DNA of 64,000 nt. Source: Procambarus clarkii (lineage: Eukaryota; Arthropoda; Malacostraca; Decapoda; Cambaridae). Each line of letters starts with the position of its first letter. Position 1 is the first letter of the stretch. Position numbers and translations under genes: made by a program. Under the pieces are notes generated by a model, which was not told where the DNA came from, did no database searches, and was given only the letters and a program-made list of their open reading frames with translations. Location of the stretch: NCBI RefSeq assembly GCF_040958095.1, contig NC_091195.1, forward strand, positions 27,479,586-27,543,585. The letters run 5' to 3'. Of the stretch, positions 10,101-48,300 are shown in pieces.

Positions 10101-13100
10101 AAGACCGAAAAGTGTACACTCTTTTGACTGTCCTGACAATAATTGAAGGCGCACGTATTTAAATTTGGTATCACTGTGTTCGCAATGAAATTGTCTATAA
10201 GAGCATACCTATAAAATGCCGCCCAAGCATAAGGAGTATCAACACCAAATAAAAAACTATGCAGATCACTCGCCGAGAGCGCCAAACAGCAACAAAATGT
10301 TTCCACTCTCTTAATGGTTGCGAAGCCTACAGTTGTCCTACATCGCTAATTTTGGTATCATTGGAATCGCAATAAAATTCTCTACACGGACATATGCATA
10401 CAAATGTTTAATATAGGTAATTGCCCACCCGCAAGAGTGTGTGAAGTGGAGAGTAGTTAGCCGCGAGCGCACTGGCGAAAACACAGGGGGGAAATCATGC
10501 TTGGAAAGTTTATACGTTTCCTGACCCTACTTTTCTATGTACGTATTTCTTTTTTATACCAATGTGTTCGCAATAAAATTTTCTATAAGATGAACTGTAT
10601 AACATTTGTACAAAGCATGTGTAAGAGAAGCGCCAAATATAGAACCACGTCGCTCAGTATGCGTTCGCGGCAGAAACGAACGCATTGTTTTCGTTCGTTT
10701 GATGTTTGTCATGTTTATACTTGTTGAAACATTTTATAATTTGTATGACAGTGATCGCAGTAAAATTCCCTACACAGACATATACATAACACATACAAAT
10801 ATTTCCCACGTGTTGGATATATCAACGGCTAAAGGGAACCCACTGCCACACGCTCGCCACACCCCCAAACATACTTTGTGTATTTTTTTTTTACTCATAG
10901 AAGTTTATGTGATATAATATTCATTCTGGTACCAAAACATTCGCAAATAAATTCCCTACAAAACAAAAGTATCCCCATCCATTTCGGTTAAAAAATGGAA
11001 TTTATAGAAATATTTTTTCGTTGGACGAGAAAACTCGGCTGTTATGCGGAATCGTAAGAGAAAACGGCGACGAGTTATCTCTAATCTAAAGCGCGAAAGT
11101 GTTAAAGACTAACATCAGCTTGTAATTTTTCAGTGTCTTCTACAGAAAAAAAAATCATGTAGATTTTTGTATCATCAGCAAAGGATGATATAAAGCCATC
11201 TGTGTCCCTGATGAGAAGATGGTAAGGCTGTCAGAAACTTCAGAACGCCCACAACCAGGGCCAAAGGCTTGGGAGCAGCACCGGCCATGCAAAACGGTAC
11301 CCCAGAAACCTGACCACAAAGGCAGGAAGTAGCTCAAGGAAAAGCCCAAAGACATTGGAACCAAACAGAACTATCAGTGCACAAAGCCACTATGGCATAG
11401 ACATATGTCTCAACTGTGAAACCAAACCTTCACAACCCAGGACAGAGAAGGCCAGAGCCTAACTGGGACACAAAACCAGTGAGGTGGCCACCAAGTGGCA
11501 ACCTCCCTTCCAGGGTATGATCAGGAAGCACCACAACCTACCAACCCAGAGGATAGCAACATCTAGCCAGGACACTATGTAACACCGTAAACATGTTTGC
11601 TTTAGTTTTATTTAATCATACATAGAGATATACGAGTCACAGACAAGTATTTGAGAGGCGCCAGTTTGTTGGCCTCAAACTCACACCTCTAAGCGTTAAT
11701 GACCCCAAGTGACCTGAGGTCAGATCATGCAAATTTCACCTTGCTTCTGCTAATCTGATAATTGGCCTTCAAACATGCCGACATTTAAGGAGTGGCTTGG
11801 TAGAGTGCCTGAGGCTATCTACTTGTGGGCGGAGTTAGCTACTAGGTTCCCCAATATATACTCGGAGAGCAGAACATAGAGGATAAGAAGAGGAGACCAG
11901 ACAAAAGAGCAGAGCAGAGGCGAGCCGTCGAAATAGGCTGTCGCCGGATGGGGGGTGACGCTGCCTGACAACTGCAGACTCCCCCCCCCCCTCTCTATCC
12001 AGCTATAGGCAGACACTTGGTGAGTTGAACATTAACCCTCAAAGTGCGCATCACTTCATATGAAGTGTAAATCGTTTTACCAGTCAACTGCGCTTCACTT
12101 CATATGAAGTGTATGGGTACCGCGCACGATTTGAATGGCCCGCAGTGTAGCTGGGGGTCCCATACGCTGCCCAGGGGCTCTAGTAAACAGCGGCCATTTT
12201 GAAAAAAAATCCAGCTCACGATTCGATGGCATGGGAGGCCTCAGTTTAGCGAGAGTCACCATGGCGAGCGCACGGTCAAACGCCTCACGGGCACGCACCA
12301 CTCAGTCCCTCACCCCAGAGCAAATAGCCCACGAATTATTCTCTGAAGGTGAAGAAAGTGTGTTTGACGATTCAGACAACAATGAGGATTATACACAGTT
12401 GTCGGGTGATAGCAGCAGCAGCAGTGAAAGTGAGAATGACCGCCATGCCATGGCGAGGCCTATTCGCTCTCCCATGCCTCCTCGCCCATTTTCTACCCCA
12501 ATTCTACCACGACCTCACAGTTCCTGTGGATATTTTCTGTTTGAGGGTGACGAGTCAGAGGGAGGTGACTCCTTTTCTGGGTTTAGTGACTCAGATCAAA
12601 GTTTTATTGAGCCTGTGGCTGGTACCAGTGGTGTAACTGGGCGAGAAATTGTCGCGTCAGCAGCATCTCGCCCGGCCAAGCGCCACCGCATGGCACCACA
12701 TGAGGGACCAAGACCCTCGTGTTCACGTGCACCCACCTCACGTGCACGTAGCCGCCGTGCTTCTCGCAGACGGTATTCAGCTCCTGGTCGCCGGTATGCA
12801 TCGCTTCCTCGCCGTCTTTCCTCTGCATCTCGCAGGACGCCTGGTGTACTTGAGTGGAGTGATGGTGACGATTTTATTCCTAATATTCCTCACTTTGACG
12901 ATAAAGATGTAGGGATTACAAACCTTTTCCCTAATCAAGGTGAGGACATGGCTGAGATGGAATATTTTACAGCATTCTATGATGAACCACTCATGGAATA
13001 CATTGTACACCAAACGAACCTGCATGCTGCTTACCTGATTGAGAGGGAAATCACAGAATTTTCACGACTGCAGCGTTGGAAAAATACCACAGTGGCGGAA

Positions 13101-16100
13101 ATGTATGTGTTTTTGGCACTCTGTTTGTTGATGAAGCACTGTCACAAACATGCAATAAATGACTATTGGAGCAAGGACAAGACAATACCAACACCTTTAT
13201 TCGGGAAATATATGTCACGAGACAGGTTTCAGATACTCCTCAGGTGTCTACATTTTGGAAGTGTTCAGGACCGAACACCTGATGATAGACTGTGGCGAGT
13301 GAGGCACTACATGAACGATGTTATTGGAAAATTCAGAGATTTTTACGTACCAGCACAGAAGCTGGTGGTTGATGAATCTCTCATACTTTTCAAGGGACGT
13401 GTTCCATTCAAACAGTACATTCCCTCAAAACGAAACCGATTTGGCCTGAAATTTTTTGTTCTTTGTGATTGTGAGACAGGATACGTGTTACACATGATTC
13501 TGTACTCGGCTAGTGATGTAGACATTCCCGGTAACGACGAACATGGATTCTTGGGGAGTGTAGTGAAGACCATCATGGCTCCGTGGATGAACAAGGGACA
13601 CATTTTATACACAGATAATTACTATACAAGTCCCTTGCTAGCTCGGTTCTTGCTAGAAAATAGAACCGGATTGGTTGGTACAGTAAAGCCACAACGAAGG
13701 GAAATGCCTGTGTTTGACAACGACATTGCAGTTGGTGAGTGTCAGAGAAGGAAAAGTGATAACATTCTGTCAGTTCGGTGGAAAGACAAAAGAGAGGTGA
13801 ACTTGTTGACAACAATTCATGATGGAACAATGGTGAACAGTGGGAAAGTGAGCCATAAAACAAACGCACCACTATATAAGCCAGACTGTGTTTTAGACTA
13901 TAATATCAACATGCGGTTGATTGATAAATCAGACATGATGATTGGCACTGCAGAGTGTGTGCAGAAGACATGTAGGTGGACGAAAAAAGTGTTCTTCCAT
14001 CTTGTGGACATGAGCATGCTGAACTGTTTCAACATGTACCTTGTGAGAACTGGACGTAAGCCCACTTTCCGTGACTTTGTATTTGATGCTGCAATACAGT
14101 TATTAGGAAAGTTTGCAAAAGATGTCCCAGGTATTCAGCGGCCCATCATAAACCCACTGTTGCAGCATGCTGGTACTCCACGCCTCGCTCACACTGAAGG
14201 CTTCCTAGCACACAAACTTAAGTATTTGCCACCTGGTGTGAAGCGTTCAATAGCCCAACGTGATTGCTTGGTGTGTAAAACAACGACACGTAGAGACAAG
14301 AAACGGAAGCTTGTGCAAACATGGTGTGAAACGTGTGGTATCCCATTATGTGCTGTCGACTGCTTCAATGACTACCACAGTCTAGAAATCTTCTAAGTGT
14401 GCTTCAAAGTGTGTATAGCGTGTGCGAGTGTGTAAATATGTAAACATATAAGCAGATAGCGTGTGCGTGTGTGTAAATATATACAAATATATGCAGAACA
14501 ATATAATATAATAGACTGTAATGACATATTATATTGCCGTAATTGAAAACATTTGTGTGCGCCTGTGTATACTCAAATATGCAACAATTATTGATACAAA
14601 ATATGTTCAAACAGTATTTGAAACACAATTAGTGAAAAAAAATTAGATAAAATGCGCTTAGACATTGTAAATAAATAGCGCGAAAATATATTTGTGGCAA
14701 CTCTGGCTGTTTGAGGACCGCGCGCAACATCTCCCGGGCGTGTACTGCATGAGCGAACATGCAGATTGTGACGTCATCACCGAGCTTCTCGGCTCTATTG
14801 CAACAAAAGTAAGTACAATAGAATTTTTTTTTTATTTTTCCCGTGATCAGTGAACAGAACTTAACATTAGCAAAAAAAAAAAATTTTTTTTTTTTCAAAA
14901 TGACATGCGCCTGTGTGGATAGCAGGATATTAGACCCCGAGCATGTTAAGGGTTAAGGTGACTTGGTCGTGTTTACAAGGGTTGTGTGAGGATCAGGGGC
15001 AGTCAAATTGTAGGGTTCTCGAATTCTTGGATGATGACTCACTTTGCACTTTGTATCTTGAACATTAAGTTGAATGGCTCAAATTATGATACTTATCATG
15101 AAAAATATAATTGTTGAATTTATTATTTAAATTGTCTTTAACTTTGTTCCCTAGAGTTTTTGAGTTGAGGTGAGAAAGCCTCTGCAGTTACTGGTTCATG
15201 ATTTTAATGAGTACATGATACAGTTGGAATATACTAATAATGACCTCGTGTTAACATCTTTGAGAATTTTGTGATACAGACAAGTTCCATTCCTTGTCTT
15301 GTATGTAATGGTCTTGAATGGATGGTGGCAGCATTTCTTCTTCTACTATCTACGTTTCTACTTCTACCTATCTACTCCTCTCCCTCCACCCCTCTCTAAA
15401 CTCTCACTTTCAACTGACGACCCTCCTCGCTCCTCCCGCCTCTCTCACCCCAAACCCTCACTAATTACTTCATTATTCATCTCTTTCCTTTCGTTTTCTC
15501 TTATACGTTTGTGGCAGTGATGTAACACTGTAAAAGTGTTTGGTTTAGTTTATTTAAAATATATATACTGTAGTACATGAGTCACAGACAAGGATTTGGG
15601 AAGGCGCCAAGTTGTCGGCGGAGTTTCACACCTCTAAGAGTTAATGACCCCAAGTGACCCGAGGTCAGATCATGCGAATTTCACCTTACTTCTACTAATC
15701 TTATAATTGGAGCCTGGTAGCCTTCAAACATGCCGACGTTTAAGGAGTGGCTTGGTAGAGAGCCGGAGGCTATCTACTTGTGGGCGGAGTTAGCTACTAG
15801 GTTCCCCAATATATACTCGGAGAGCTATCGATTCGAGAGGATTAACAAGACAGAAGACCAGGCAGCAGAGCGGGACGACAACAGCCAAGACAGGCTGTCG
15901 GTCGGACGGGGGTGACGCTGCCTGACAGCTGCAGACTCCCCCCCACCCCCCCACCCCCTCTATCCAGCTATAGGCAGGCACTTGGTGAGTTGAGCAGTAA
16001 GGTGACTTGGTTGTGTTTTACAAGTGTTGTGTGATGATCAGGGGCAGTCAGTTGTAGTGTTCTCAGATTCTTGGAGGATGACTCACTTTACCTATATATA

Positions 16101-19100
16101 TCTTGAACATTGCTTAAATTATGATACTTAGTATGTGAAATATATGAATTTATTATTTAAATCGTCTTTGTTCCCTAGAGCTTTGAGTTGAGGTGAGAAA
16201 GCCTCGGTGGTTACTAGATTCATGATATTAATGAGTACATGTTTGGAGTTGATACATGGTACAGAGGGAACATACTAATAATGAACTCATGATAACATCT
16301 TTTGAGAATATTGTAATACAGACAAGTTCCATTCCTTGTCTGGTATATAATGGTCTAGAATGGATGGTGGCAGCATTTCGTCTTCTACTATCTACTCTTC
16401 TACTTCTACTATCTACTCTTCTACTTCTACCTATCTATTCCTCTCCCTCCATCCCTCTCCGAACTTTCCCTTTCAGCTAATGACCCTCCTCGCTCCTCCC
16501 ACCTCTCTCTGCCTCTCACCCCAAACCCTCACTAATTACTTCACTATTCATTTCTTTCCTTTCGTTTCCTCTTATACGTTTGTGGCAGTGAAATGTATTC
16601 TAGAGTTCTCTCTAGTTTCGGGTAGCTGATCCAGTTACGGCGCCTTGTAGTCTTAGCACCTAGGTAGTCAAATACCTAGGTTACAAGGTGTTGAACGAGA
16701 GAGGTTGCCTTAGGAACTCTGGGAGTGCTCTAGAATAGTTAGCTAACTGGGGACGGGATAACGGACTAGAGAGAGCTGTTTCCCCCGGCCTCGTTAGTCA
16801 ACTGGGGGGTGGAATAATGGACAAGAGAGAGCTATTTCCCCCACCCTCCCGTTACAACTGTACCTAAAAACAAAATGAAACCAATCGGTCTCTGCTGTCA
16901 ATGGTACCGGCCACCCTCCTCGTGCCCTCAGGATATTAGGAAAAGTGTATCCAGTCTAGCATAGGAACCTATACCTATCTTAGCTGAAGAAAACAGACCA
17001 ATGGTGTGGTAACCACCAGCCTAACAAACACCTACTTGGGCCGGACTAGAAAATGGGACTTTCAGCCACCATCTAAAGCATGTATACAGCCACCAAAACA
17101 ACAGTGCTACAATAAAATGAGTAAATGGGCTGAAGCCGAGTACTACCCAACACCTAGAAAGGAGCCAAGAAGATCACTTCCACTACTTTCAAGAACTTAC
17201 TTCCTTCTTCAAGCAAGTGTATTTCCACATTTTGCAAGTAGAAATGAGATAATACAAATAACAGTCAGTAATGGTTGATATAAAGCATATATATAGTAGC
17301 AGCATAATGTAGAGTACAGTATTAAGTACCTGTATTTTGGTGCGAAGCGTCTGTGCCGCAAAGAAGCACGAATTCACATCACGTTTTGCATGTAGTAACT
17401 GATCTGCTACCTTCCAAGCTTGTACCTGCAACAGAAACGAATTATTAACTACTTTTCCCTGTTAGTCCTACATTTTTTCTACATCCTTGGTTCACAACCA
17501 AGGATCCTGGGTTCGATCCCCGGGTGGAATAAAGACGGTTAGGCACGTTTCCTTCCAACCGACACCTTTGTTCACCCAACAGCAAGTATTTACCCAGGAG
17601 TTGCACACTTCGTGAGGGTTACATCCTAGGAAACGTCAACACTATTTGGCTTAGGGGGGACCTGCCAGATAGGTGGAAAGGGGGAGGGGGGCCTGCCAGA
17701 CAGGTGGAAGGGGGAGGGGGACCTGCCAGACAGGTGGAAGGGGGAGGGGGACCTGCCAGACAGGTGGAAGGGGGGCGGGGGACCTGCCAGACAGGTGGAA
17801 GGGGGGCGGGGGACCTGCCAGACAGGTGGAAGGGGGGCGGGGGACCTGCCAGACAGGTGGAAGGGGGGCGGGGGACCTGCCAGACAGGTGGAAGGGGGGC
17901 GGGGGACCTGCCAGACAGGTGGAAGGGGGGCGGGGGACCTGCCAGACAGGTGGAAGGGGGGCGGGGGACCTGCCAGACAGGTGGAAGGGGGCGGGGGACC
18001 TGCCAGACAGGTGGAAGGGGGCGGGGGACCTGCCAGACAGGTGGAAGGGGGCGGGGGACCTGCCAGACAGGTGGAAGGGGGCGGGGGACCTGCCAGACAG
18101 GTGGAAGGGGGTGGGGGACCTGCCAGACAGGTGGGAGGGGGACCTGCCAGACAGGTGGAAGGGGGGAGGGGGACCTGCCAGACAGGTGGAAGGGGGGAGG
18201 GGGACCTGCCAGACAGGTGGAAGGGGGGGAGGGCTCAGGTGATTTCGGGTCTTAGCGTCCCCGCGGCCCGGTCCTCGACCAGGCCTCCACCCCCAGGAAG
18301 CAGCCCGTGACAGCTGACTTAACACCCAGGTACCTATTTTACTGCTAGGTAACAGGGGCATAGGGTGAAAGAAACTCTGCCCATTGTTTCTCGCTGGCGC
18401 CCGAGATCGAACCCAGGACCACAGGATCACAAGTCCAGCGTGCTGTCCGCTCGGCCGACTGATCAAGTGGTACATTCTTGCAAAGCCACTAACATGCATA
18501 GCATTTCCCACAGCTCCTTACGCTAAACACAACTTGCTATTAATTACAAACAAGAAGGTGAATAGTCAATCTTGAATACAACAATATAGTGCCGAGTACA
18601 TCAGACTTTGAATTCAGATTATTACCAAATTAATACAACGATAAAAGAAATTATAACGATGTAGTTGTATTTCTAGATACTAACATACTAGGCAAGTCAG
18701 TAGCAGAAGGTTAATTATGATTAATTGGTGGAAGACTTGCCACTTTCAAAACAAATCCCTATTCAGACCAGTATTTCCCAACCAGGGTTCTTCACAATCA
18801 TAAGAAATCGAGGGATTTCACAAGAGATACGGATAAACACACTAATTCTTATCATACGCAAATGTATTTTTGAGTTTTTTGTATCAAATTATTTAATTTA
18901 ACCTGCATCAAGAACAAAGACAGAAATAGTCTTTCAACTGACAATGAAACTCTTGTGTATTTATGTAAAGTATTACCCAAAATTATTTTAAGGGCACAAA
19001 AAAGGTTGAGAAATGGCAATTTAGACCAATTTAGTCATTGTTTATGCAAGAATTTGTATATAATTACCTAATATACATTAACATTTGCACACGGCCATAA

Positions 19101-22100
19101 AGACGTTTGTGTTTATTAGTGATATTAGTGTACAATTAGTGATGTATAGTGTTGCCAGCTGCCTAGATATCTTAGACGCAAATCATTTGTAGCGGGTATT
19201 AATGTTATTATTAAAACCTTTCCAACCCAAGATAACCCAGCCAAAGTATGTCATACACAAGCTTAACATTTAGAAAACTGTGTGTGCAAATTATGGTAGT
19301 CAAATTGTACACAGGATCACGGTACAGTCAAATTGTACACAGGATCACGGTACAGTCAAATTGTACACAGGATCACGGTACAGTCAAATTGTACACAGGA
19401 TCACGGTACAGTCAAATTGTACACAGGATCACGGTACAGTCAAATTGTACACAGGATCACGGTACAGTCAAATTGTACACAGGATCACGGTACAGTCAAA
19501 TTGTACACAGGATCACGGTACAGTCAAATTGTACACAGGATCACGGTACAGTCAAATTGTACACAGGATCACGGTAGTCAAATTGTACACAGGATCACGG
19601 TACAGTCAAATTGTACACAGGATCACGGTACAGTCAAATTGTACACAGGATCACGGTACAAATTGTACACAGGATCACGGTACAGTCAAATTGTACACAG
19701 GATCACGGTACAGTCAAATTGTACACAGGATCACAGTACAGTCAAATTGTACACAGGATCACGGTAGAGTCAAATTGTACACAGGATCACGGTACAGTCA
19801 AATTGTACACAGGATCACGGTACAGTCAAATTGTACACAGGATCACGGTACAGTCAAAGTGTACACAGGATCATGGTACAGTCAAATTGTACACAGGACC
19901 ATGGTACAGTCAAATTGTACACAGGATCATGGTACAGTCAAATTGTACACAGGACCATGGTACAGTCAAATTGTACACAGGATCACAGTACAGTCAAAGT
20001 GTACACAGGATCACAGTACAGTCAAAGTGTACACTGGATCATGGTTATCTCGAGATGATTTCGGGGCTTTAGTGTCCCCGCGGCCCGGTCCTCGACCAGG
20101 CCTCCACCCCCAGGAAGCAGCCTGTGACAGCTGACTAACTCCCAGGTACCTATTTTACTGCTCGGTAACAGGGGCATAGGGTGAAAGAAACTGCCCATTG
20201 TTACTCGCCGGCGCCCGGGATCGAACCCGAGACCACAGGATCACAAGTCCAGCGTGATGTCCGCTCGGCTGACCGGCTCCCTATGGTACAGTCAAATTGT
20301 ACATAGAATCATGGTAGTCAAATTGTACACAGAATCATGGTACAGTCAAATTGTACACAGAATCATGGTACAGTCAAATTGTACACAGAATCATGGTACA
20401 GTCAAATTGTACACAGAATCATGGTACAGTCAAATTGTACACAGAATCATGGTACAGTCAAATTGTACACAGAATCATGGTACAGTCAAATTGTACACAG
20501 AATCATGGTACAGTCAAATTGTACACAGAATCATGGTACAGTCAAATTGTACACAGAATCATGGTACAGTCAAATTGTACACAGAATCATGGTACAGTCA
20601 AATTGTACACAGAATCATGGTACAGTCAAATTGTACACAGAATCATGGTACAGTCAAATTGTACACAGAATCATGGTACAGTCAAATTGTACACAGGTGT
20701 CTTGACAAAGCCCGTTTTCTAATTCTCAAAACTGTATATACGGTTAGGTAAGGATGTATTGACCAACGGTCTTTTAGGGTCGGTGGAATTGGTTCGGGCG
20801 AGGTTAGACAGGTTATAAGACACACCGGTGAACAATCTTGTGTACAAATGTGACATGTATCCGTGCAAAAACACCGGAGTACAATTTGACCGCAACTTCT
20901 TCCGTTTAGTATTGGGAATAAAACTGTCTGACGTATTCTATCTTGAGATGATTTCGGGGCATAGCGTCCCCGCGGCCCGGTCCACGACTAGGCCTCCTTT
21001 TGGTTACACGCCCCCCAGGAAGCAGCCCGTAGCACCTGTCTAACTCCAAGCTACCTATTGACTGCTAGGTTAACAGGAGCATCAGGGTGACAGAAACCGC
21101 CCATTTGTTTCCGCCTCCACCGGGAATCGAACCCGAAACGTTAGTACTATGAATCCCAATCGCTGTCCACTCAGCCGTCAAGCCCCCCTAATAAATTACC
21201 CGATGGGCTACCCTAAGCAGTATAACTGATGGGTAATGACTATATTGATTTCCCACTTTATCTGGAGACAAAAACCCTACAAGGTTTGTCGAGGTCCCTC
21301 CATGCCCTGCCCGGGACCCCGACTCCATAGTTGACCCCACAATCGGGGTACCAATGTACTGCTCGGTGAACAGGGGCATGAGGTGTCAAACCACGCACCC
21401 AAACGTCCTGCCCAGCTTGTGAACCAACCCCGGGGCAAAATGAGTTACAAAACAGCCGCACTAATCGCTACACCACAGAGAAAATATTAGCAACATTAAT
21501 GACAAAATAATTTAAGCTTAAATTGTAATTTTTAGTGATTGTTAGGCTTAATACATGGGGTAAGTGGGTGAGGAGGGGGTGTGGCCCTGGGGTCAGGGCC
21601 ACACCCCAGGACCACCATCCCCCAGGGACCCCCCAGGGACCACCAGGGACCCCCCAGCTCCCCCCAGGACCCCCCAGCACCCACCAGGGACCACTTACAG
21701 AACGCTGCAGCTGGCCCAGCCACTTGGAGGCCTGGTCGTGCTCCCCACCCACCACCCACCAGGACCCCCCAGCACCCACCACCACCCCCCAGGGACCCAC
21801 CAGAGACCACCAGGACCCCCCAACACCCCCAGCACCCCCCAGGGACCACCAGCACCCCCCAGGACCCACCAGCACCCCCCAGGGACCACCAGGGACCACT
21901 TACAGAACGCTGCAGCTGGCCCAGCCACTTGGAGGCCTGGTCGTGCTCCCCCCCCCCCCCCACCACCCCCAGGACCCCCCACCACCCCCCAGGACCCCCC
22001 AGGACCCCCCACCACCCCCCAGGACCCCCCAGGGACCACTTACAGAACGCTGCAGCTGGCCCAGCCACTTGGAGGCCTGGTCGTGCTCCCCCCCACCACC

Positions 22101-24467
22101 CCCCAGGACCCACCAGCACCCCCCAGGACCCCCCAACACCCCCCAGGACCCCCCAGGGACCACCAGGGACCACTTACAGAACGCTGCAGCTGGCCCAGCC
22201 ACTTGGAGGCCTGGTCGTGCTCCCCCCCACCACCCCCCAGGACCCACCAGCACCCCCAGGACCCCCCAGGGACCACCAGGGACCACTTACAGAACGCTGC
22301 AGCTGGCCCAGCCACTTGGAGGCCTGGTCGTGCTCCCCCCCCACCACCCCCAGGACCCCCCACCACCCCCCAGGACCTCCCAGCACCCCCCACCACCCCC
22401 CAGGACCTCCCAGCACCCCCCAGGGACCCACCAGCACCCCCCAGGGACCCACCAGCACCCCCCAGGACCCCCCAGCACCCACCAGGGACCCACCAGCACC
22501 CCCCAGGACCCCCCAGCACCCACCAGGGACCACCAGGGACCACCAGGGACCACTTACAGAACGCTGCAGCTGGCCCAGCCACTTGGAGGCCTGGTCGTGC
22601 TTGACCCCAGACCCCCAGCACCCACCAGCACCTCCCAGGACCCCCCAGCACCCCCCAGGGACCCCCCAGGGACCACCAGGGACCACTTACAGAACGCTGC
22701 AGCTGGCCCAGCCACTTGGAGGCCTGGTCGTGCTTGACCCCAGGACCCCCCACCACCCCCCAGGACCCACCAGGGACCACCAGGGACCACCAGGGACCAC
22801 TTACAGAACGCTGCAGCTGGCCCAGCCACTTGGAGGCCTGGTCGTGCTTGACCCCAGGACCCCCCACCACCCCCCAGGACCCACCAGGGACCACCAGGGA
22901 CCACCAGGGACCACTTACAGAACGCTGCAGCTGGCCCAGCCACTTGGAGGCCTGGTCGTGCTTGACCCCAGGACCCCCCAGCACCCACCAGCACCTCCCA
23001 GGACCCCCCAGCACCCCCCAGGGACCCCCCAGGGACCACCAGGGACCACTTACAGAACGCTGCAGCTGGCCCAGCCACTTGGAGGCCTGGTCGTGCTTGA
23101 CCCCAGGACCCCCCACCACCCCCCAGGGACCCCCCAGCACCCCCCAGCACCCACCAGGGACCACCAGGGACCACCAGGGACCACTTACAGAACGCTGCAG
23201 CTGGCCCAGCCACTTGGAGGCCTGGTCGTGCTTGACCCCAGGACCCCCCACCACCCCCCAGGACCCACCAGGGACCCCCCAGGGACCACCAGGGACCACT
23301 TACAGAACGCTGCAGCTGGCCCAGCCACTTGGAGGCCTGGTCGTGCTTGACCCCAGGACCCCCCACCACCCCCCAGCACCCCCCAGCACCCACCAGCACC
23401 CCCCAGGGACCACCAGGGACCACTTACAGAACGCTGCAGCTGGCCCAGCCACTTGGAGGCCTGGTCGTGCTCCCCCCCACCACCCCCCAGGACCCACCAG
23501 CACCCCCCAGGACCCCCCAGGGACCACCAGGGACCCCCCAGGGACCACCAGGGACCACTTACAGAACGCTGCAGCTGGCCCAGCCACTTGGAGGCCTGGT
23601 CGTGCTCCCCCCCACCACCCCCCAGGACCCACCAGCACCCACCACCACCCACCAGCACCCCCCAGGGACCCCCCAGGGACCACCAGGGACCACTTACAGA
23701 ACGCTGCAGCTGGCCCAGCCACTTGGAGGCCTGGTCGTGCTTGACCCCAGGACCCCCCACCACCCCCCAGGACCCACCAGGGACCACCAGGGACCACTTA
23801 CAGAACGCTGCAGCTGGCCCAGCCACTTGGAGGCCTGGTCGTGCTTGACCCCAGGACCCCCCAGCACCCACCAGCACCTCCCAGGACCCCCCAGCACCCC
23901 CCAGGGACCCCCCAGGGACCACCAGGGACCACTTACAGAACGCTGCAGCTGGCCCAGCCACTTGGAGGCCTGGTCGTGCTTGACCCCAGGACCCCCCAGC
24001 ACCCACCAGCACCTCCCAGGACCCCCCAGCACCCCCCAGGGACCCCCCAGGGACCACCAGGGACCACTTACATAACGCTGCAGCTGGCCCAGCCACTTGG
24101 AGGCCTGGTCGTGCTTGACCCCAGGACCCCCCAGCACCCCCCAGGACCCCCCAGGGACCCACCAGGGACCACCAGGGACCACTTACAGAACGCTGCAGCT
24201 GGCCCAGCCACTTGGAGGCCTGGTCGTGCTTGACCCCAGGACCCCCCACCACCCCCCACCACCCCCCAGGACCCCCCACCACCCCCCAGGACCCCCCACC
24301 ACCCCCCAGGACCCCCCAGGGACCACCAGGGACCACCAGGGACCACTTACAGAACGCTGCAGCTGGCCCAGCCACTTGGAGGCCTGGTCGTGCTTGACCT
24401 TGTCATGGAGCTCGGCGTCGTAGAGAGTGTTGACGGCGGCCAACACCTCGCTGATGTCCACCTCCAT
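943..24467 (-). CDS. TNPO3: Transportin-3 (importin-beta family), 5' four coding exons; gene runs off left edge
   Basis: Four exons on the minus strand (24467-24351, 17425-17330, 2913-2748, 1121-943) join in frame to 186 codons, with phases 0, 0, 1 and 0 and GT-AG borders. The product matches the N-terminal HEAT-repeat region of transportin-3. Diagnostic strings are WLGQLQRS, SCFFAAQTLRTKIQ, ELPVEAHASLR, ALADLALHMASW and ALPEELHSRQLRLG-NRR. In known animals TNPO3 is about 920 residues and imports SR-rich splicing factors into the nucleus in a RanGTP-dependent way. Here only about the first fifth is present; the rest must lie beyond position 1. Intron sizes are about 6.9, 14.4 and 1.6 kb, bloated by satellites and transposons. 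The chosen start, the ATG at 24467, gives a human-like N-terminal length. An alternative in-frame ATG lies 45 nt upstream (24512) but would add a basic proline-rich extension unlike the family. Confidence 0.93.
1560..1705 (-). repeat. SINE-T, tail-only copy
   Basis: Body and tail of the commonest SINE in the window, in minus orientation: GATGATTTCGGGGCTT, then the CGGCCCGGTCCTCGACC core, then GGTACCTATTTTACTGCTAG. The tRNA-like head is missing. It abuts the next copy. Confidence 0.8.
1706..1955 (-). repeat. SINE-T with well-folding tRNA-Thr-like head
   Basis: A full-length tRNA-derived SINE read on the minus strand. The head (1952 down to 1883) forms an acceptor stem GCCTCGT/ACGAGGC with seven perfect pairs, a B box GGTTCGATTCC, and a seven-base anticodon loop CTCGTAA with anticodon CGT (threonine). 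The body follows, with GGTACCTGGGAGTTAGTCAG and the CGGGGCTT tail. A functional tRNA is less likely because the sequence runs straight into the SINE body with no pol III terminator. Confidence 0.8.
1975..2090 (-). repeat. SINE-T head fragment
   Basis: tRNA-like head of a second SINE subtype: GAGCCGGTCAGCCGAGCGG (A-box-like) and GGTTCGATCCC (B box), read on the minus strand. The same head occurs at 9957, 18467 and 20282. Confidence 0.75.
2240..2460. repeat. 51-bp minisatellite with short G-rich lead-in
   Basis: Three copies of a 51-bp unit containing GATGGTGGGGATGGGGAGAG (starts 2298, 2349, 2400), preceded by about four copies of a 20-bp GGGGAGGCTGTGGGGTGGAT unit. Open frames across it on both strands are by-products of the repeat. 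Confidence 0.85.
2519..2640 (-). pseudogene. CR1-like LINE reverse transcriptase remnant
   Basis: On the minus strand the region parallels the VPQGSVLGPLLF to FADDTK segment of the intact LINE at 43249-44502, but with substitutions and indels. No ORF remains. Confidence 0.6.
2748..2913 (-). CDS. TNPO3: TNPO3 exon 3
   Basis: 166 nt encoding residues about 72-127. Acceptor ACTTTGCAG precedes TTG TAT TTT; donor is ATTG/GTGAGT (2747-2742). It contains GELPVEAHASLRASMLEHL and ATQLCVALADLALHMASW, matching the third to fourth HEAT helices of transportin-3. Confidence 0.94.
2914..3663. other. TNPO3 intron 2, unique part
   Basis: AT-rich sequence with no coding match and no repeat family I recognise, apart from a short CCCGGGTAC palindrome near 3005. 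Confidence 0.6.
3664..8205. repeat. 4.5-kb minisatellite, 29-bp unit
   Basis: About 155 head-to-tail units of 29 bp, starting CACCCACAACACACAACATA. Common variants are a C-to-T change (CACCTAC) and a 24-bp unit lacking CATAA. The plus strand has almost no G. Because 29 is not a multiple of 3 and the unit lacks minus-strand stops, long cysteine/valine/leucine-rich frames stay open on the minus strand. These are by-products, not genes. It lies in TNPO3 intron 2. Confidence 0.97.
8250..8345 (-). repeat. LINE-A 3' tail (5'-truncated)
   Basis: Poly-T (8251-8278), then sequence whose reverse complement reads CCCAAAACGCTACGCGTACTAGTGGC. This is the 3' UTR signature shared by LINE-A copies at 26160, 30000, 31850, 32280, 41155, 46450 and 58290. 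Confidence 0.7.
8351..8490 (-). repeat. Degenerate tRNA-derived SINE
   Basis: Shares the ACATTTTACTGTTGCG-TAAACAGAGG block with SINE-type sequences at 36912 and has a TTCGTATCC-like B box on the minus strand. Strongly diverged. Confidence 0.5.
8541..8795. mobile_element. MITE-G palindromic element, copy 2
   Basis: Full-length hairpin element. The left end is diverged (GGTGCTAGATTCACAAAGC) and the right end is GAATCTGGCCCC. The central pair is AGCTCCGAAGCACCAGGAGG. Confidence 0.85.
8796..9175. other. No gene seen; short CA repeat
   Basis: Intronic sequence with an A run and a (CA)n tract at about 9040-9077. Nothing else recognisable. Confidence 0.6.
9176..9432 (-). repeat. SINE-T, full copy
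   Basis: Minus-oriented: tail GATGATTTCGGGGCTTAGCG at left, GGTACCTATTTATTGCTAGG in the middle, and a tRNA-like head with B box GGTTCGATCCA at right (9368-9378). Confidence 0.85.
9724..9957 (-). repeat. SINE-T, near full copy
   Basis: Same layout as at 9176, with the GAGCCGGTCGGCCGAGCGG head. The 9433-9723 gap before it holds nothing recognisable. Confidence 0.85.
10024..11105. mobile_element. TTAA-flanked non-autonomous DNA transposon (piggyBac-like ends)
   Basis: Both ends are TTAA followed by a 12-bp inverted repeat: left TTAACACTTTCGCGCT, right AGCGCGAAAGTGTTAA. The TTAA duplication is the hallmark of the piggyBac superfamily, but these inverted repeats differ from those of the intact element at 12036. 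The interior (1.07 kb) has no transposase. It has about five diverged repeats of a block containing TTCGCAATAAAATT-CTA (near 10180, 10365, 10568, 10750 and 10945). Confidence 0.75.
11106..11578. other. No gene; trace of LINE RT
   Basis: 11155-11185 contains TTTTTGTATCATCAGCAAA, which on the minus strand reads as a FADDTK-like reverse-transcriptase box without surrounding ORF. The rest is unrecognised. Confidence 0.45.
11579..12035. repeat. 1-kb tandem duplication, copy 1, left half
   Basis: Begins TGTAACACCGTAAAC and aligns throughout with 15521-16003 (copy 2), including CATGCCGACATTTAAGGAG and the TCTATCCAGCTATAGGCAG block. Copy 1 is split by the piggyBac element and resumes at 14957. The unit starts TG and ends in GTGGCAGTGA, so a long terminal repeat origin is possible but unproved. 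Confidence 0.8.
12032..14956 (+). mobile_element. Complete piggyBac transposon with TTAA target duplication
   Basis: TTAA at 12032-12035 and 14953-14956 brackets a 2917-bp element. Its ends start CCCT on each strand (left CCCTCAAAGTGCGC, right reverse complement CCCTTAACATGCTC), as in known piggyBac elements. The undisturbed sister copy of the host repeat reads GTTGAGCAGTAAGGTGAC at 15993-16010, giving the empty site directly. Two perfect palindromes CACTTCATATGAAGTG (12052-12067 and 12096-12111) lie near the left end. It carries one intact transposase gene. Confidence 0.92.
12261..14396 (+). CDS. piggyBac transposase, apparently intact
   Basis: An uninterrupted reading frame of 712 residues from the ATG at 12261, which has an ideal CACCATGG context. 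An in-frame upstream ATG at 12135 would add 42 residues. The product cuts and pastes its element at TTAA sites in the nucleus. The N-terminal third is acidic/serine-rich, then arginine-rich (residues about 150-200), as in piggyBac-derived proteins. The DDE domain follows, starting near FTAFYDEPLMEYIV. Candidate catalytic aspartates are D371 (VVDES), D452 (YTDNYYTS), D555 and D558 (LIDKSDMM). Their spacings of 81, 103 and 3 agree closely with the known piggyBac D268/D346/D447/D450. The C-terminus has a cysteine-rich zinc-binding finger (CLVCK, then CETCGIPLCAVDC). No frameshift or stop is seen, so recent activity or domestication is possible; the flanking terminal repeats favour a live transposon. 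It sits in TNPO3 intron 1/2 territory, antisense to TNPO3. Confidence 0.95.
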   Translation: MASARSNASRARTTQSLTPEQIAHELFSEGEESVFDDSDNNEDYTQLSGDSSSSSESENDRHAMARPIRSPMPPRPFSTPILPRPHSSCGYFLFEGDESEGGDSFSGFSDSDQSFIEPVAGTSGVTGREIVASAASRPAKRHRMAPHEGPRPSCSRAPTSRARSRRASRRRYSAPGRRYASLPRRLSSASRRTPGVLEWSDGDDFIPNIPHFDDKDVGITNLFPNQGEDMAEMEYFTAFYDEPLMEYIVHQTNLHAAYLIEREITEFSRLQRWKNTTVAEMYVFLALCLLMKHCHKHAINDYWSKDKTIPTPLFGKYMSRDRFQILLRCLHFGSVQDRTPDDRLWRVRHYMNDVIGKFRDFYVPAQKLVVDESLILFKGRVPFKQYIPSKRNRFGLKFFVLCDCETGYVLHMILYSASDVDIPGNDEHGFLGSVVKTIMAPWMNKGHILYTDNYYTSPLLARFLLENRTGLVGTVKPQRREMPVFDNDIAVGECQRRKSDNILSVRWKDKREVNLLTTIHDGTMVNSGKVSHKTNAPLYKPDCVLDYNINMRLIDKSDMMIGTAECVQKTCRWTKKVFFHLVDMSMLNCFNMYLVRTGRKPTFRDFVFDAAIQLLGKFAKDVPGIQRPIINPLLQHAGTPRLAHTEGFLAHKLKYLPPGVKRSIAQRDCLVCKTTTRRDKKRKLVQTWCETCGIPLCAVDCFNDYHSLEIF
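14957..15520. repeat. 1-kb tandem duplication, copy 1, right half
   Basis: Continues copy 1 after the piggyBac insertion (GGTGACTTGGTCGTG) and ends TTTGTGGCAGTGA. Aligns with 16004-16591. Confidence 0.8.
15521..16591. repeat. 1-kb tandem duplication, copy 2 (no insertion)
   Basis: Starts TGTAACACTGTAAAAG immediately after copy 1 ends and finishes with the same GTGGCAGTGA. No piggyBac is present. The two copies show scattered substitutions, so the duplication is not very recent. A direct junction of this kind could also be two abutting LTRs. Confidence 0.8.
16592..17329. other. TNPO3 intron 1, no gene seen
   Basis: Contains two related blocks with AGAGAGAGCT-TTTCCCCC (near 16775 and 16825). 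These may belong to the same mobile element as the 1-kb duplication. No coding match. Confidence 0.5.
17330..17425 (-). CDS. TNPO3: TNPO3 exon 2
   Basis: 96 nt, 32 codons, phase 0 at both ends. Acceptor TTCTGTTGCAG/GTACAA and donor ATACAG/GTACTT. The product contains AWKVADQLL and SCFFAAQTLRTKIQ, matching transportin-3 residues just after the first HEAT helix. Confidence 0.95.
17485..17650 (+). repeat. tRNA-derived SINE, distinct family
   Basis: Plus-strand B box GGGTTCGATCCCC (17509-17521), then TTCACCCAACAGCAAGTATT and GTTGCACACTTCGTGAGGG. Related in plan but not in sequence to SINE-T. Confidence 0.55.
17651..18236. repeat. 30-31-bp G-rich minisatellite
   Basis: About 19 copies of a unit containing GACCTGCCAGACAGGTGGAA, with a run of 5-7 G and an optional C. 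Each unit includes the near-palindrome CCTGCCAGACAGG. All three plus frames stay open for up to 189 codons because the unit lacks stops. Confidence 0.95.
18237..18467 (-). repeat. SINE-T, near full copy
   Basis: Starts GATTTCGGGTCTTAGCG directly at the edge of the minisatellite and ends at the tRNA-like head with GGTTCGATCTC as B box. Confidence 0.85.
18468..19294. other. TNPO3 intron 1, no gene seen
   Basis: AT-rich unique-looking sequence with no coding or repeat match I recognise. Confidence 0.6.
19295..20043. repeat. 28-bp minisatellite, left part
   Basis: About 26 units of 28 bp beginning TACAGTCAAATTGTACACAG and ending GATCACGG. Units near the right end drift to GATCATGG, GACCATGG or AAAGTGTACAC. 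A SINE then interrupts the array. Confidence 0.95.
20044..20282 (-). repeat. SINE-T inserted in the 28-bp array
   Basis: Full SINE-T (TTATCTCGAGATGATTTC to the tRNA-like head CCGGCTCC), flanked on both sides by array units. ATGGT at both junctions may be a short target duplication, but the repetitive flank prevents proof. Confidence 0.85.
20283..20697. repeat. 28-bp minisatellite, right part
   Basis: About 15 nearly identical units with GAATCATGG in place of the GGATCACGG that dominates the left part. The two sides have therefore homogenised separately. Confidence 0.95.
20937..21187 (-). repeat. SINE-T, older copy
   Basis: GATGATTTCGGGGCATAGCG tail, TGACTGCTAGGTTAACAGG centre, and B box GGTTCGATTCCC. 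20698-20936 before it shows no feature. Confidence 0.8.
21240..21470 (-). repeat. Degenerate SINE
   Basis: The block GTACCAATGTACTGCTCGG-TGAACAGGGGCAT matches the SINE-T centre. The flanks are strongly diverged. Confidence 0.5.
21596..24350 (-). repeat. Minisatellite built from TNPO3 exon 1 tail plus 5' splice site
   Basis: Nineteen extra copies of a block of about 50 bp that equals the last coding bases of TNPO3 exon 1 and its GTAAGT donor. They lie near 21690, 21895, 22037, 22171, 22284, 22551, 22684, 22798, 22912, 23047, 23183, 23297, 23421, 23558, 23692, 23795, 23930, 24065 and 24180. Each copy encodes KWLGQLQRS-like residues in one minus frame. Copies are separated by 50-220 bp of GGTCCCTGGTGG-type filler, itself short-period repeat. 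The real exon end lies at 24351. The copy at 24065 has one change (CATAACG). Most right-hand copies keep extra exon bases (GGTCAAGCACGACC), while several left-hand ones have lost them. No acceptor sites were duplicated. Confidence 0.95.
24351..24467 (-). CDS. TNPO3: TNPO3 exon 1 (start codon)
   Basis: 117 nt, 39 codons from ATG (24467-24465) to TCT/GTAAGT. It encodes MEVDISEVLAAVNTLYDAEL and then the WLGQLQRS helix, matching the first HEAT repeat of transportin-3. It leaves in phase 0 for exon 2. Its last 50 bases are the source or template of the array just downstream. Confidence 0.93.
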
Positions 24468-24910
24468 CTTAGCATACTCTTGAGGGCGGAGTGGGCGTCG
24501 TGGTGGTCTCACACTCGCACACGGGGGTAAAGCGGAGTGGGCGTCGTGGTGGTGTCACACTCGCACACACGGGGGGAGAGCGGAGTGGGCGTCGTGATGG
24601 TCTCACACTCGTACACCGGGGGGAGACGCCACCAGCCAGCTAGCCAGTCACTGTCTCTCTCTCTCTCTCACCCAACTACCCCTTCTACCGCACCATTACC
24701 GCCCTCCTGGGCGTCACGGGGTGCTGGGCAAGCCGTAGGGGAGGTCACACGCCGCTAGGGAGGTCACACACGCGGGTTCAGAGTTCACAACATATGAGGC
24801 AGGTCACAAGGGGATGAAATGTATGGTGGTGGTTGTAACGCCTGGCCAGCGCTCGCTGGGTCAAACCTCTTCGCTCTCTTCTCTCTCTCTCTCTCTCTCT
24901 CCTTATCGCC
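24468..24910 (-). promoter_or_regulatory. TNPO3 5' UTR / promoter region with triple repeat
   Basis: The GC-rich flank upstream of the start codon holds three copies of a 52-56-bp unit with GGAGTGGGCGTCGTGGTGG and CACACTCGCACAC (24488-24625), then CT tracts (24653-24671 and 24879-24901). No TATA box can be assigned. Promoter status is inferred only from position. Confidence 0.45.
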
Positions 24911-27629: not shown

Positions 27630-27872
27630 AGGAGACACACGGAAAAAGTGTGCACAGAGAGTTAAGTGATACGGACAGTGATGAACGACCAGGTGGTGAT
27701 ACTGACAGTGAAGTGCAGCTAATATCCCGCTGACGAGCACAGATAATACAGTTTAGTATGTGCGGATCTGCGGACCTTACGACTATTATCTTTTCGCGAA
27801 TGGGCAGGCCGTGAGAGCCGACAATGCGTACAATCGCGGTCCCAGACTACTGCCTCCCACATACACAGCCTC

Positions 27873-28373
27873 GCTCCTGTGCCGGGTAAGTCCACTAGGG
27901 GCTCACCATAGCCCGTGCTACTTGCCCCGCTCCTGTGCCAGGTAAGTCCACTACGGGCTCACCATAGCCCGTGCTACTTGCCCCGCTCCTGTGCCAGGTA
28001 AGTCCACTACGGGCTCACCATAGCCCGTGCTACTTGCCCCGCTCCTGTGCCAGGTAAGTCCACTACGGGCTCACCATAGCCCGTGCTACTTGCCCCGCTC
28101 CTGTGCCAGGTAAGTCCACTACGGGCTCACCATAGCCCGTGCTACTTGCCCCGCTCCTGTGCCAGGTAAGTCCACTACGGGCTCACCATAGCCCGTGCTA
28201 CTTGCCAAGCTCCTGTGCCAGGTAAGTCCACTAGGGGCTCACCATAGCCCGTGCTACTTGCCCCGCTCCTGTGCCAGGTAAGTCCACTACGGGCTCACCA
28301 TAGCCCGTGCTACTTGCCCCGCTCCTGTGCCAGGTAAGTCCACTACGGGCTCACCATAGCCCGTGCTACTTGG
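27873..28373. repeat. 56-bp minisatellite, array 1
   Basis: Nine units starting GCTCCTGTGCCAGGTAAGTC, with a perfect donor-like CAG/GTAAGT and the stem ACGGGCTCACCATAGCCCGT. The right flank GTACTGAGTAGGTGAATCTA resembles the flank of array 2 at 49060. A partial flank lies at 36190-36280. Confidence 0.93.
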
Positions 28374-45300: not shown

Positions 45301-48300
45301 CTGACAGGCTCCAGTATGTTTCTGTGAATAATTCCATATCTCCTACACAACCCATAAACATTTGTGTTCCTCAAGGCAGCATACTTGGCCCTCTCCTCTT
45401 TCTCATCTACATTAATGACCTTCCACATGCCTCCCAACACCTCAAACCAATTCTATTTGCTGACGACACAACCTTCATTTACTCCAGTCCTGACCCCCTT
45501 GCTCTAAATGTCACAGTGAATACTGAACTAAATAAAGTTCATCTTTGGCTAACTGCCAACAAACTCACCCTTAACATTGACAAAACTTTCTGTATTTTGT
45601 TTGGCAATAAATTCTCAAATCAAATAAATCTCAGAATAAATAATACCCAAATTTGTAACAAATTAGATGGCAAATTCCTTGGCGTTCTCATTGACCAGAA
45701 GCTGAATTTCCAGGGACACATTCTAAATATATAAAAAAAAAGTTTCAAAAACTGTTGTCATTCTTTCTAAGATCAGATATTATGTACCTCGCCCTGCCCT
45801 GGTGACGCTCTATTACTCTCTCATCTATCCTTATCTCAACTATGGTATTTGTGCTTGGGGTTCTACTACCCAAAATCACTTACGTCCTCTAATTACTCAA
45901 CACAAAGCTGCTATTAGGACAATATCCAACTCTGGCCCCAGACATCACTCGGTACCCTTACTCAAATCTCTGAATATGTTAGATATTAAGTCACTGTTCA
46001 TCCTCTCTTGTGTACTCTATATATTTAAAACTCTGAACTGTAATGCCAATCCTGACCTTAAAAGTTTCCTAGAAGGTTGTAACAGAACCCATGAGCACCA
46101 CACCAGAAACAAATACCTATTTGATATTCCAAGAGTGCGACTTAATCAAACTAGAAATGCTCTACAAATCAAGGGACCCAGAAAGTGGAATGACCTTCCC
46201 AACCATGTTAAAGACTGTACCTCTCTTAACCAGTTTAAGTTAAAAACTAAACACTACCTAATTAACTCCCTGTAACCCACCTCACCCCTAATGTCAACCA
46301 ATGTCTTGGTATTTTAAACAATGCTGTCTGTTGACCAAATTATATATTGGGTATTTTTCTGCCATGTTCCCCCCTTTTTTTTATTTTAGATTTTCTCAAC
46401 ACAATTTATACTTTAATCTCAATTAGTATTAAGTTTTAGTCTTAGTGTTTTTCCTGCCCGAAACGCTTAGCGTAATAGCGGCTTTAGGCATTGTATGTAC
46501 TAACTCTATAAATCTATCAATGTTTCTATCTCACCTTGTATGTATGTACTTTACCTGAATAAACATTTGCAGGTGATGAGTCACAATAACGTGGCTGAAG
46601 TATGTTGACCAGACCACACACGAAGGTTAAGGGACGACCACGTTTCGGTCCGTCCTGGACCATTCTCAAGTCGATTGTGAGAATGGTCCAGGACGGACCG
46701 AAACGTCGTCGTCCCTTCACCTTCTAGTGTGTGGTCTGGTCTGAATAAACATTTGAGTTGAAGTGACGTTCTTCAGGTACTCCGTGAGTCGTCCAGCGGA
46801 CGGGTCGTGGGGACTGCTACACGACAACGGCTCCTGGTCTGGCATGGTCGGGATGGTCGCCAGGAAGGTCGGTTAATTGATTGATAAAGATTAAGCCACC
46901 CAAAAGGTGGCACGGGCATGAATAGCCCGTAAGTGGTGGCCCTTTTGAGCCATTACCAGTATCAATAGACGATACTGGAGATCTGTGGAGGTGCGACTGC
47001 ACCCTGCGTGACGGGAGATGTCTCCCGTGGGGAAAGGTCGGTGCTCCGGCCAGATTCACGAAGCAGTTACGCAAGTACTTACGAACGTGTACATCTTTCC
47101 TCAATCTTTGACGGCTTTGGTTACATTAAACAATTTACAAGCATGAAACCTTGCCAGTCAACTGTTGTTATTGTTATAAACAGCCTCCTGGTGCTTCGGA
47201 GCTCATTAATTGTTTAAAAATTGTAAACAAAACCTCCAAAGATTGAAAAAAGATGTATTGGGGCCAGATTCTCGAAAGCACTTACGAACCTGTCCATCTT
47301 TTCTCAATGTTTGGCGGCTTTGTTTACAATTATTAAACAGTTAATGAGCTCCGAAGCACCAGGAGGCTGTTTATAACAATAACAACAGTTGATTGGCAAG
47401 TTTTCATGCTTATATACTGTTTAATGTAACCAAAGCCGTCACAGATTGAGGAAAGATGTACACGTTCGTAAGTGCTTTCGTGAATCTGGCCCCAGGTTCG
47501 TACGTGCTGGCATAATTGCTTCGTGAATCTGGCCCCCGGTCTCTCCATTACATAGTGATAACCAGAGCGACGGTCTTGCGTCATGCAGGACGGTGTTCAA
47601 TCCCCGATCATCCATGATTGGTTGGGCACCATTCCTTTCCCCTCGTCCTATCCCAAATCCTTATCCTAATCCCCATCCCAGGATAATCCCCTGTTGAGGA
47701 GGGGATAATGATCGCCTCCTCCACGGACACAAGCTTAGACGATTGATTGATAAAGATTAAGCCACCCAAGAGGTGGCACGGGCATGAATAACCCGTGATG
47801 AGGAAGAGACTGACCTGTGGGGGCTTATACCTTGAGGGCGGCCACTACATGTTACCTACACACCGATTGATTGATTGATGGAGATTAAGCCACCCAAAAG
47901 GTGGCACGGGCATGAATAGCCCGTAAGTGGTGGCCCTTTTGAGCCATTACCAGTATCAAGAGCTGATACTGGAGATCTGTGGAGGTGCGACTGCACCCTG
48001 CGTGACGGGAGATGTCTCCCGAGCTTAGAGTCAGCTTGTGGGCAGACATGTAGTGTGCTCCACAGACCACTTCCAACCCCCATCATGGTTGGCAGCTTAT
48101 AGTACCTCGGCACTAAGCTGTTTAAGAACTTCCAAGCTTTACTAGGTCATTCACGATGCAGTAATACTAAGCTTGGGTCCGGGAACATCCTAAGTCCTCA
48201 ACTGTTTAGTAAATACAGATTAAGCTGCACGAAATACTTTATGAACAGTGGGCAAGTAACCCGTCCGTCACCGCTCCTGTGCCAGGTAAGTCCACTACGG

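Follow-up and report, generated by a model that had tools for sequence, protein, structure and literature searches.

A splice-donor-bearing exon/intron-boundary minisatellite in TNPO3 of the crayfish Procambarus clarkii, very probably a by-product of local repeat growth

Introduction

The choice of the spliceosome among identical neighbouring splice sites has usually been studied with engineered duplications. In the crayfish Procambarus clarkii, a window of 64,000 nucleotides (the whole stretch of DNA analysed here, to whose first letter all plain positions refer) raises the same question for a natural gene, as the end of TNPO3 exon 1 together with its splice donor recurs 19 times in the intron that directly follows (Table 1). 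Where do these copies come from, and does the gene use them? An earlier note on this DNA has read them as competing 5' splice sites, and its claims are taken up below where the evidence bears on them.

The host gene

TNPO3 of P. clarkii has been found as one intact gene at one locus, with 17 exons on the minus strand. A query with human TNPO3 has given 11 matches, all on the same contig and strand, and the translation of a 17-exon model with GT-AG introns and the first donor equals exactly the 929-aa protein P0002, recorded as transportin-3 isoform X2 [Procambarus clarkii]. The identity of the gene is based on this whole-gene match and model; the 39-aa peptide of exon 1 alone has found no match among solved structures, even at an E-value of 10. 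Intron 1 measures 6,925 nt, the first 2.75 kb of which are filled by the array.

Several further features of the gene have been observed. A 48-nt unit is repeated three times in tandem at 24482-24626, immediately 5' of the start codon and probably in the 5' UTR. Toward the 3' end of intron 1, at 17655-18228, a 31-nt unit is repeated 19 times, and its minus-strand units carry an acceptor-like CCTTCCACCTGTCTGGCAG that differs from the exon 2 acceptor. Intron 2 holds, on the plus strand at 12135-14396, an open frame for a 753-aa transposase (PF13843 type), which we take to be piggyBac-like. In P0001, a P. clarkii TNPO3 of 1021 aa, the peptide of one exon (ESILVQ...AKNLVP) occurs twice in comparison with P0002, perhaps because an exon is duplicated or the gene model is wrong in another assembly.

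Table 1. Coordinates of the TNPO3 exon 1 boundary, the donor copies and related features in the window (a slash marks the exon-intron boundary)
Feature	Position	Strand	Remarks
Boundary minisatellite array	21596..24350	minus	19 copies of exon end and donor, separated by spacers of a G-rich 10-nt minisatellite
TNPO3 exon 1, coding part (39 codons)	24351..24467	minus	copy source; ATG 24467; 17-exon model
Authentic exon 1 donor TCT/GTAAGT	24345..24353	minus	junction QRS/VQAW in P0001, P0002, P0003
Copy 1, type A	24181..24230	minus	begins 120 nt past exon 1 boundary
TAA inside decoy 1	24183..24185	minus	TAA at 24185; cuts decoy 2-19 products to 94 aa
Copy 2, type A	24066..24115	minus	sole variant TAT/GTAAGT
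Copy 3, type A	23931..23980	minus	
Copy 4, type A	23796..23845	minus	
Copy 5, type A	23692..23741	minus	
Copy 6, type B	23557..23606	minus	
Copy 7, type B	23422..23471	minus	
Copy 8, type A	23298..23347	minus	
Copy 9, type A	23183..23232	minus	
Copy 10, type A	23048..23097	minus	
Copy 11, type A	22913..22962	minus	
Copy 12, type A	22799..22848	minus	
Copy 13, type A	22685..22734	minus	
Copy 14, type A	22552..22601	minus	
Copy 15, type B	22285..22334	minus	
Copy 16, type B	22172..22221	minus	
Copy 17, type B	22038..22087	minus	
Copy 18, type B	21898..21947	minus	
Copy 19, type B	21693..21742	minus	last copy
TNPO3 exon 2	17330..17425	minus	acceptor TTCTGTTGCAG/GTACAAG, start 17425; gene model

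Structure of the donor array

A 41-nt core of the exon end (AGCACG...CAGCGT) occurs at 20 places, i.e., in the exon and in 19 copies, without a single substitution, and the last core starts at 21742. When the 4.03-Gb assembly is searched for exact matches, with repeat counts that may be lower bounds, a 30-mer of this core is listed only at those 20 places; a dispersed family has therefore been rejected as far as exact copies are concerned, as the 30-mer is listed nowhere outside the array and exon 1. The core count and the gene model thus bear out what the earlier note had claimed of the locus, namely the identity of TNPO3 and 19 copies in the same orientation directly after exon 1. Its statement that the last 50 bases are copied holds for the copying and not for a uniform length, as the copied piece measures 47-49 nt in the 12 copies of type A, joined via ...GGGGTCA, and 44 nt in the seven of type B, which are without TCA. 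Along the array the two junction types form blocks, with copies 1-5 of type A, 6-7 of type B, 8-14 of type A and 15-19 of type B.

GTAAGT is kept in all 20 places (19/19 copies) and is preceded by TCT in 19 of them and by TAT in copy 2, so that the full donor ascribed to every copy is full on the intron side only. These 20 are the only GTAAGT (or GTRAGT) sites within intron 1. Among the 122 AGs of the array, none follows a pyrimidine-rich tract (maximum pyrimidine fraction 0.58), in agreement with the claim that no copy gains an acceptor; decoy exons within the array have been rejected on this ground.

Tandem arrays are error-prone and haplotypes could differ in copy number, which, along with the failure of a 137-aa array stretch to give an independent sighting in a protein search, might suggest an error of read assembly. 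The array lies, however, on a 38.2 Mb record in an assembly of 2308, the window is free of N, and the distal end of the array has a unique-looking flank. In addition, collapse or looping errors would not easily make ordered spacer variants that differ from each other, and we regard an artefact as highly improbable. The structure of the array and its assignment to TNPO3 are real. At its distal end (21578-21605), a perfect inverted repeat, GGTGTGGCCCTG/CAGGGCCACACC, has been seen by eye.

Spacers, turnover and origin

The array units vary in length from 104 to 267 nt because the spacer is itself a minisatellite, consisting of G-rich 10-nt subunits such as GGTCCCTGGT, GGGTCCTGGG, GGTGCTGGGG and others. 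The spacers are composed of shuffled blocks, one of them common to units 2, 3 and 10 and another to units 11 and 12, and distant units share identical stretches as long as 225 nt, homogenised blocks of this kind being a mark of repeat turnover. The duplicated unit blocks and the long exact matches are ordinary tandem-repeat turnover. The 44-nt exon piece shows one substitution across its 19 copies, whereas the spacers are diverse, which points to a recent amplification; selection or conversion could, as an alternative, account for an exon core without differences. At the first junction the exon (AAGGTCAAGC; AAGGTC/AAGC) and the spacer (GGGGTCAAGC; GGGGTC/AAGC) have GGTC in common (here the slash marks the end of the shared bases), as fits a duplication by slippage or microhomology. 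We propose that intron 1 may have begun with a G-rich 10-nt minisatellite which slipped or recombined at the GGTC shared with exon 1, by which the exon end and its donor would have been brought into the array, and that recent unequal exchange would then have multiplied the composite unit of exon end, donor and G-rich intron start.

The composition of the spacers invites a different reading, in which U1 sites and G-rich spacers near the gene start act as a U1-recruiting or G-quadruplex/R-loop element that promotes transcription or blocks premature polyadenylation, without any decoy splicing. In favour of such an element, G makes up 49% of the sense strand of the array, which has 162 runs of at least three G and whose G4 motifs form 21 clusters, with at least one per spacer; strings of this kind are, however, expected from the spacer minisatellite itself. 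Furthermore, AATAAA and ATTAAA, the only signals sought, occur once each in intron 1 and both past the array, which leaves little to suppress. We hold a role of this kind to be very unlikely.

Donor choice and predicted decoy products

In a scoring matrix of which the ranking alone has been used, the authentic donor TCT/GTAAGT takes the second-lowest place of the 16 TNPO3 donors and is outscored by the donor of copy 2, TAT/GTAAGT. As 19 of the 20 donors are identical round the junction, the sequence there cannot separate them. A first donor is favoured by its cap-proximal position and exon context, and G-runs tend to silence a donor when on the exon side and to help it when on the intron side. 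In the 100 nt upstream, one G-run has been counted for the authentic donor and 5-8 for each of the 19 decoys, while the downstream counts are 7 and 5-8, respectively. We propose that the spliceosome normally would take the outermost, cap-proximal donor and that the decoys would leave unused with intron 1, for which the dense G-runs that precede each decoy and not the authentic donor may be a plausible reason. With donors so weak and so nearly alike, and with copy 2 scoring higher than the authentic one, some leakage is plausible.

Use of decoy 1 would add 164 nt and shift the frame, so that translation would end in exon 2 after 99 aa, and the products of the other decoys would end at the TAA inside decoy 1 (Table 1). 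As every decoy product is thereby cut to 94-99 aa, a longer functional protein from decoy use has been rejected, and decoy use can only lower TNPO3. The earlier note had correctly drawn this consequence, and also the change of phase on use of decoy 1; the stop of the read-through frame at the decoy's own TAA, to which it pointed there, applies to read-through past decoy 1 and to decoys 2-19, as use of decoy 1 removes the TAA.

Of the 120 proteins listed, three are from P. clarkii (P0001, P0002 and P0003), and all three use the first donor. First-donor use rests on these records, which are probably predicted models, two of them with isoform X names. P0002 has also been listed with four contigs from the source 'lgn', taken here as an assembly of sequencing reads, in which an unbroken reading frame of a 17-exon gene would be spliced RNA. 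A protein search with the 94-aa read-through product has given seven matches from 13 candidates, all with a different exon 1 and none from the array, and the 137-aa stretch of the array has given none from seven candidates, both being weak tests, as arrays of this kind tend to interrupt assemblies of short reads. The seven matches appear crab- or penaeid-like by the likeness of their exon 1 to P0010, P0037 and P0009. Beyond the boundary they continue for 14-91 residues, or about 42-273 nt, and since the first P. clarkii copy lies 120 nt past it, only the longest match is informative on the absence of an array.

These observations bear on the idea of a rheostat or feedback, in which the decoys would compete for U1, their non-productive use would lower TNPO3, and the balance would track the supply of splicing factors. 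Twenty donors with an identical intron side, a weak authentic donor and the truncation of all decoy products speak for this idea. The three listed P. clarkii records, however, use the first donor, the two protein searches have found no decoy product, and a recent-looking array would make a poor candidate for a conserved feedback. A boundary array is moreover present at an unrelated Rab-like gene (see below), which argues against a special link to the import of SR proteins. We therefore judge such a rheostat very unlikely. Hence the competition among about 20 donors asserted in the earlier note is unsupported, no evidence has been found for the splicing-sensitive feedback that it called conceivable from the import of SR splicing factors by TNPO3, and a regulatory reading of the decoys is unsupported.

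Boundary arrays at other exons

The survey of other exons comprises 101 exon matches, i.e., 11 of TNPO3 (without exon 1), 30 of the 40 listed for UQ_con and 60 of the 136 listed for Ras, which are best-scoring or hand-picked, do not all belong to different genes, and partly come from overlapping neighbouring stretches. Arrays of period 10 or more, as found by TRF at score 50, which misses weaker repeats, cover 6.9% of the flanks of these exons. In the window they make up 35%, or 33% without the TNPO3 donor array, so that the repeat-rich setting is uneven (33% in the rest of the window vs 6.9% in the sampled flanks). For the species as a whole, the available passages of a crayfish study rank P. 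clarkii last of 19 crayfish in total repeat share, with 30% (PMC13130569). Two other arrays of the window, at 27868-28372 and 48271-49052, have a related 56-nt unit whose consensus holds the donor consensus CAGGTAAGT on the plus strand. At 50439-56578, a ligand-gated channel-like coding piece (PF00060, slightly below cut-off) is followed by a 5.4-kb 19/39-nt array with more than 1800 codons open in three frames.

An array lies within 15 nt of the match in eight of the 101 exons. In three of these (L009, L107 and L072) the splice site is inside the repeat, and the other five adjoin it; a boundary array confined to TNPO3 exon 1 has thus been rejected. TNPO3 itself accounts for one of the three, as L009 is the acceptor of its exon 14 (G000:C46:27436914-27437034; L009:1707-1827), where TTTGTTTGTCAG occurs three extra times upstream of the real acceptor at a spacing of about 28 nt. 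A Rab-like exon (L107:221-656, G000:C29) is preceded by 13 tandem acceptors, 12 decoys and the real one, with a pyrimidine tract and CAG/GAC-like ends; CTAAC, which is branch-site-like, has been seen by eye just upstream in 10 of the 13. This acceptor array is the mirror image of the TNPO3 donor array. The third, at a second Ras-family exon (L072), is a degenerate 2.3-copy repeat of that exon's own donor. All three repeat only a few exon bases, and an extra copy of an exon-internal 25-mer in the fetched flank has been found for none of the 81 exons tested (the last 20 of the 101 lying outside this test), so that TNPO3 exon 1 stays an extreme case, unmatched in the sample. Of the earlier note's view that exon-derived minisatellites of this size are unusual, it may be said that boundary minisatellites have precedents and that other arrays of this genome include a splice site.

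With distance from the match edge, array coverage goes from 2.8% (1-10 nt) to 9.6% (151-400 nt) and back to 5.6% (401-650 nt); the sample is small, and the edges are approximate, as HMM match ends may fall inside or beyond exons. With coverage dropping toward the exon edges (and also beyond 400 nt), boundary arrays as an enriched, selected feature are unsupported. They arise at an appreciable rate and may be mildly disfavoured, and their thinning near exon edges may mean that such arrays are not wholly harmless.

Comparison with known systems

A minisatellite of the human gene IFI6 (6-16) is said to supply multiple splice donor sites, as reportedly described by Turri et al. in 1995, with short donor-like repeats at the exon edge and several donors used in the mRNA. 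In both IFI6 and TNPO3, a minisatellite multiplies donors at a gene boundary. The two differ in that a 44-49 nt exon piece is copied in TNPO3 and that no decoy product has been found there in two protein searches.

Closer in structure are the mirages of amphioxus, exon/intron-boundary minisatellites which, in the passages available, have been reported for Adh3 and the globins BflGb6 and BflGb9 (PMC3087553), and also for PGBD5 and others, with TnC cited in addition (PMC3902484). As in these, the tandem units of TNPO3 span a real exon-intron boundary. Many amphioxus units are described as carrying AG or GT, and GTAAGT is present in 19/19 TNPO3 copies. Both 5' and 3' boundaries are affected in amphioxus, as they are in P. 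clarkii with the TNPO3 donor array and the Rab-like acceptor array. Regular splicing is described there as undisturbed (PMC3087553, PMC3902484), and boundary duplication has been proposed as a model of intron birth for the globins (PMC3087553). In contrast to these cephalochordate cases, the host of the TNPO3 array is an arthropod. The extra donors number 19, compared with 6 and 3 units in the BflGb6 haplotypes, and the exon core is invariant, while BflGb6 units are 81-100% identical (PMC3087553). Unlike the amphioxus mirages, as described in those passages, the TNPO3 units are composites in which a variable minisatellite of G-rich 10-nt subunits serves as spacer. The TNPO3 array has the structural features of a mirage, with ongoing regular splicing supported rather than proven.

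In crayfish, minisatellites have been reported as the largest part of satellite DNA (PMC13130569), so that the mutational setting is similar to that of the TNPO3 array. The families of that study, in the text available, stem from genome-wide clustering of reads, and the words 'intron' and 'exon' are absent from its main text (PMC13130569). In the titles, abstract openings and passages of the open-licence literature, no report of a crustacean boundary minisatellite has been found.

Conclusion

Taken together, TNPO3 of P. clarkii very probably carries an exon/intron-boundary minisatellite, or mirage, that is a by-product of local repeat growth and whose decoys are normally spliced out unused. 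The donor array is probably recent and near neutral and not a control switch. Overall it probably affects TNPO3 only slightly, decoys being used in no more than a minor fraction of transcripts, which would then be truncated. A broader reading combines two claims, that boundary minisatellites form a class found frequently across the genome of crayfish and that length-variable arrays serve as graded, allele-specific dampers through occasional decoy use. The suggestion of a frequent class stems from the survey, in which three of the 101 exons (TNPO3 exon 1 not counted) hold a splice site in an array, one of these being also in TNPO3 and one degenerate, and the combined reading is unlikely.

Twenty near-identical donors behind a real first exon constitute a natural test of splice-site choice, and the 13 similar acceptors before the Rab-like exon form a second natural ladder. 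Should the small sample be a fair guide to the frequency of such arrays, crayfish would offer many natural experiments on splice-site choice, which would also bear on the tolerance of cryptic sites and on the birth of introns from boundary duplications.
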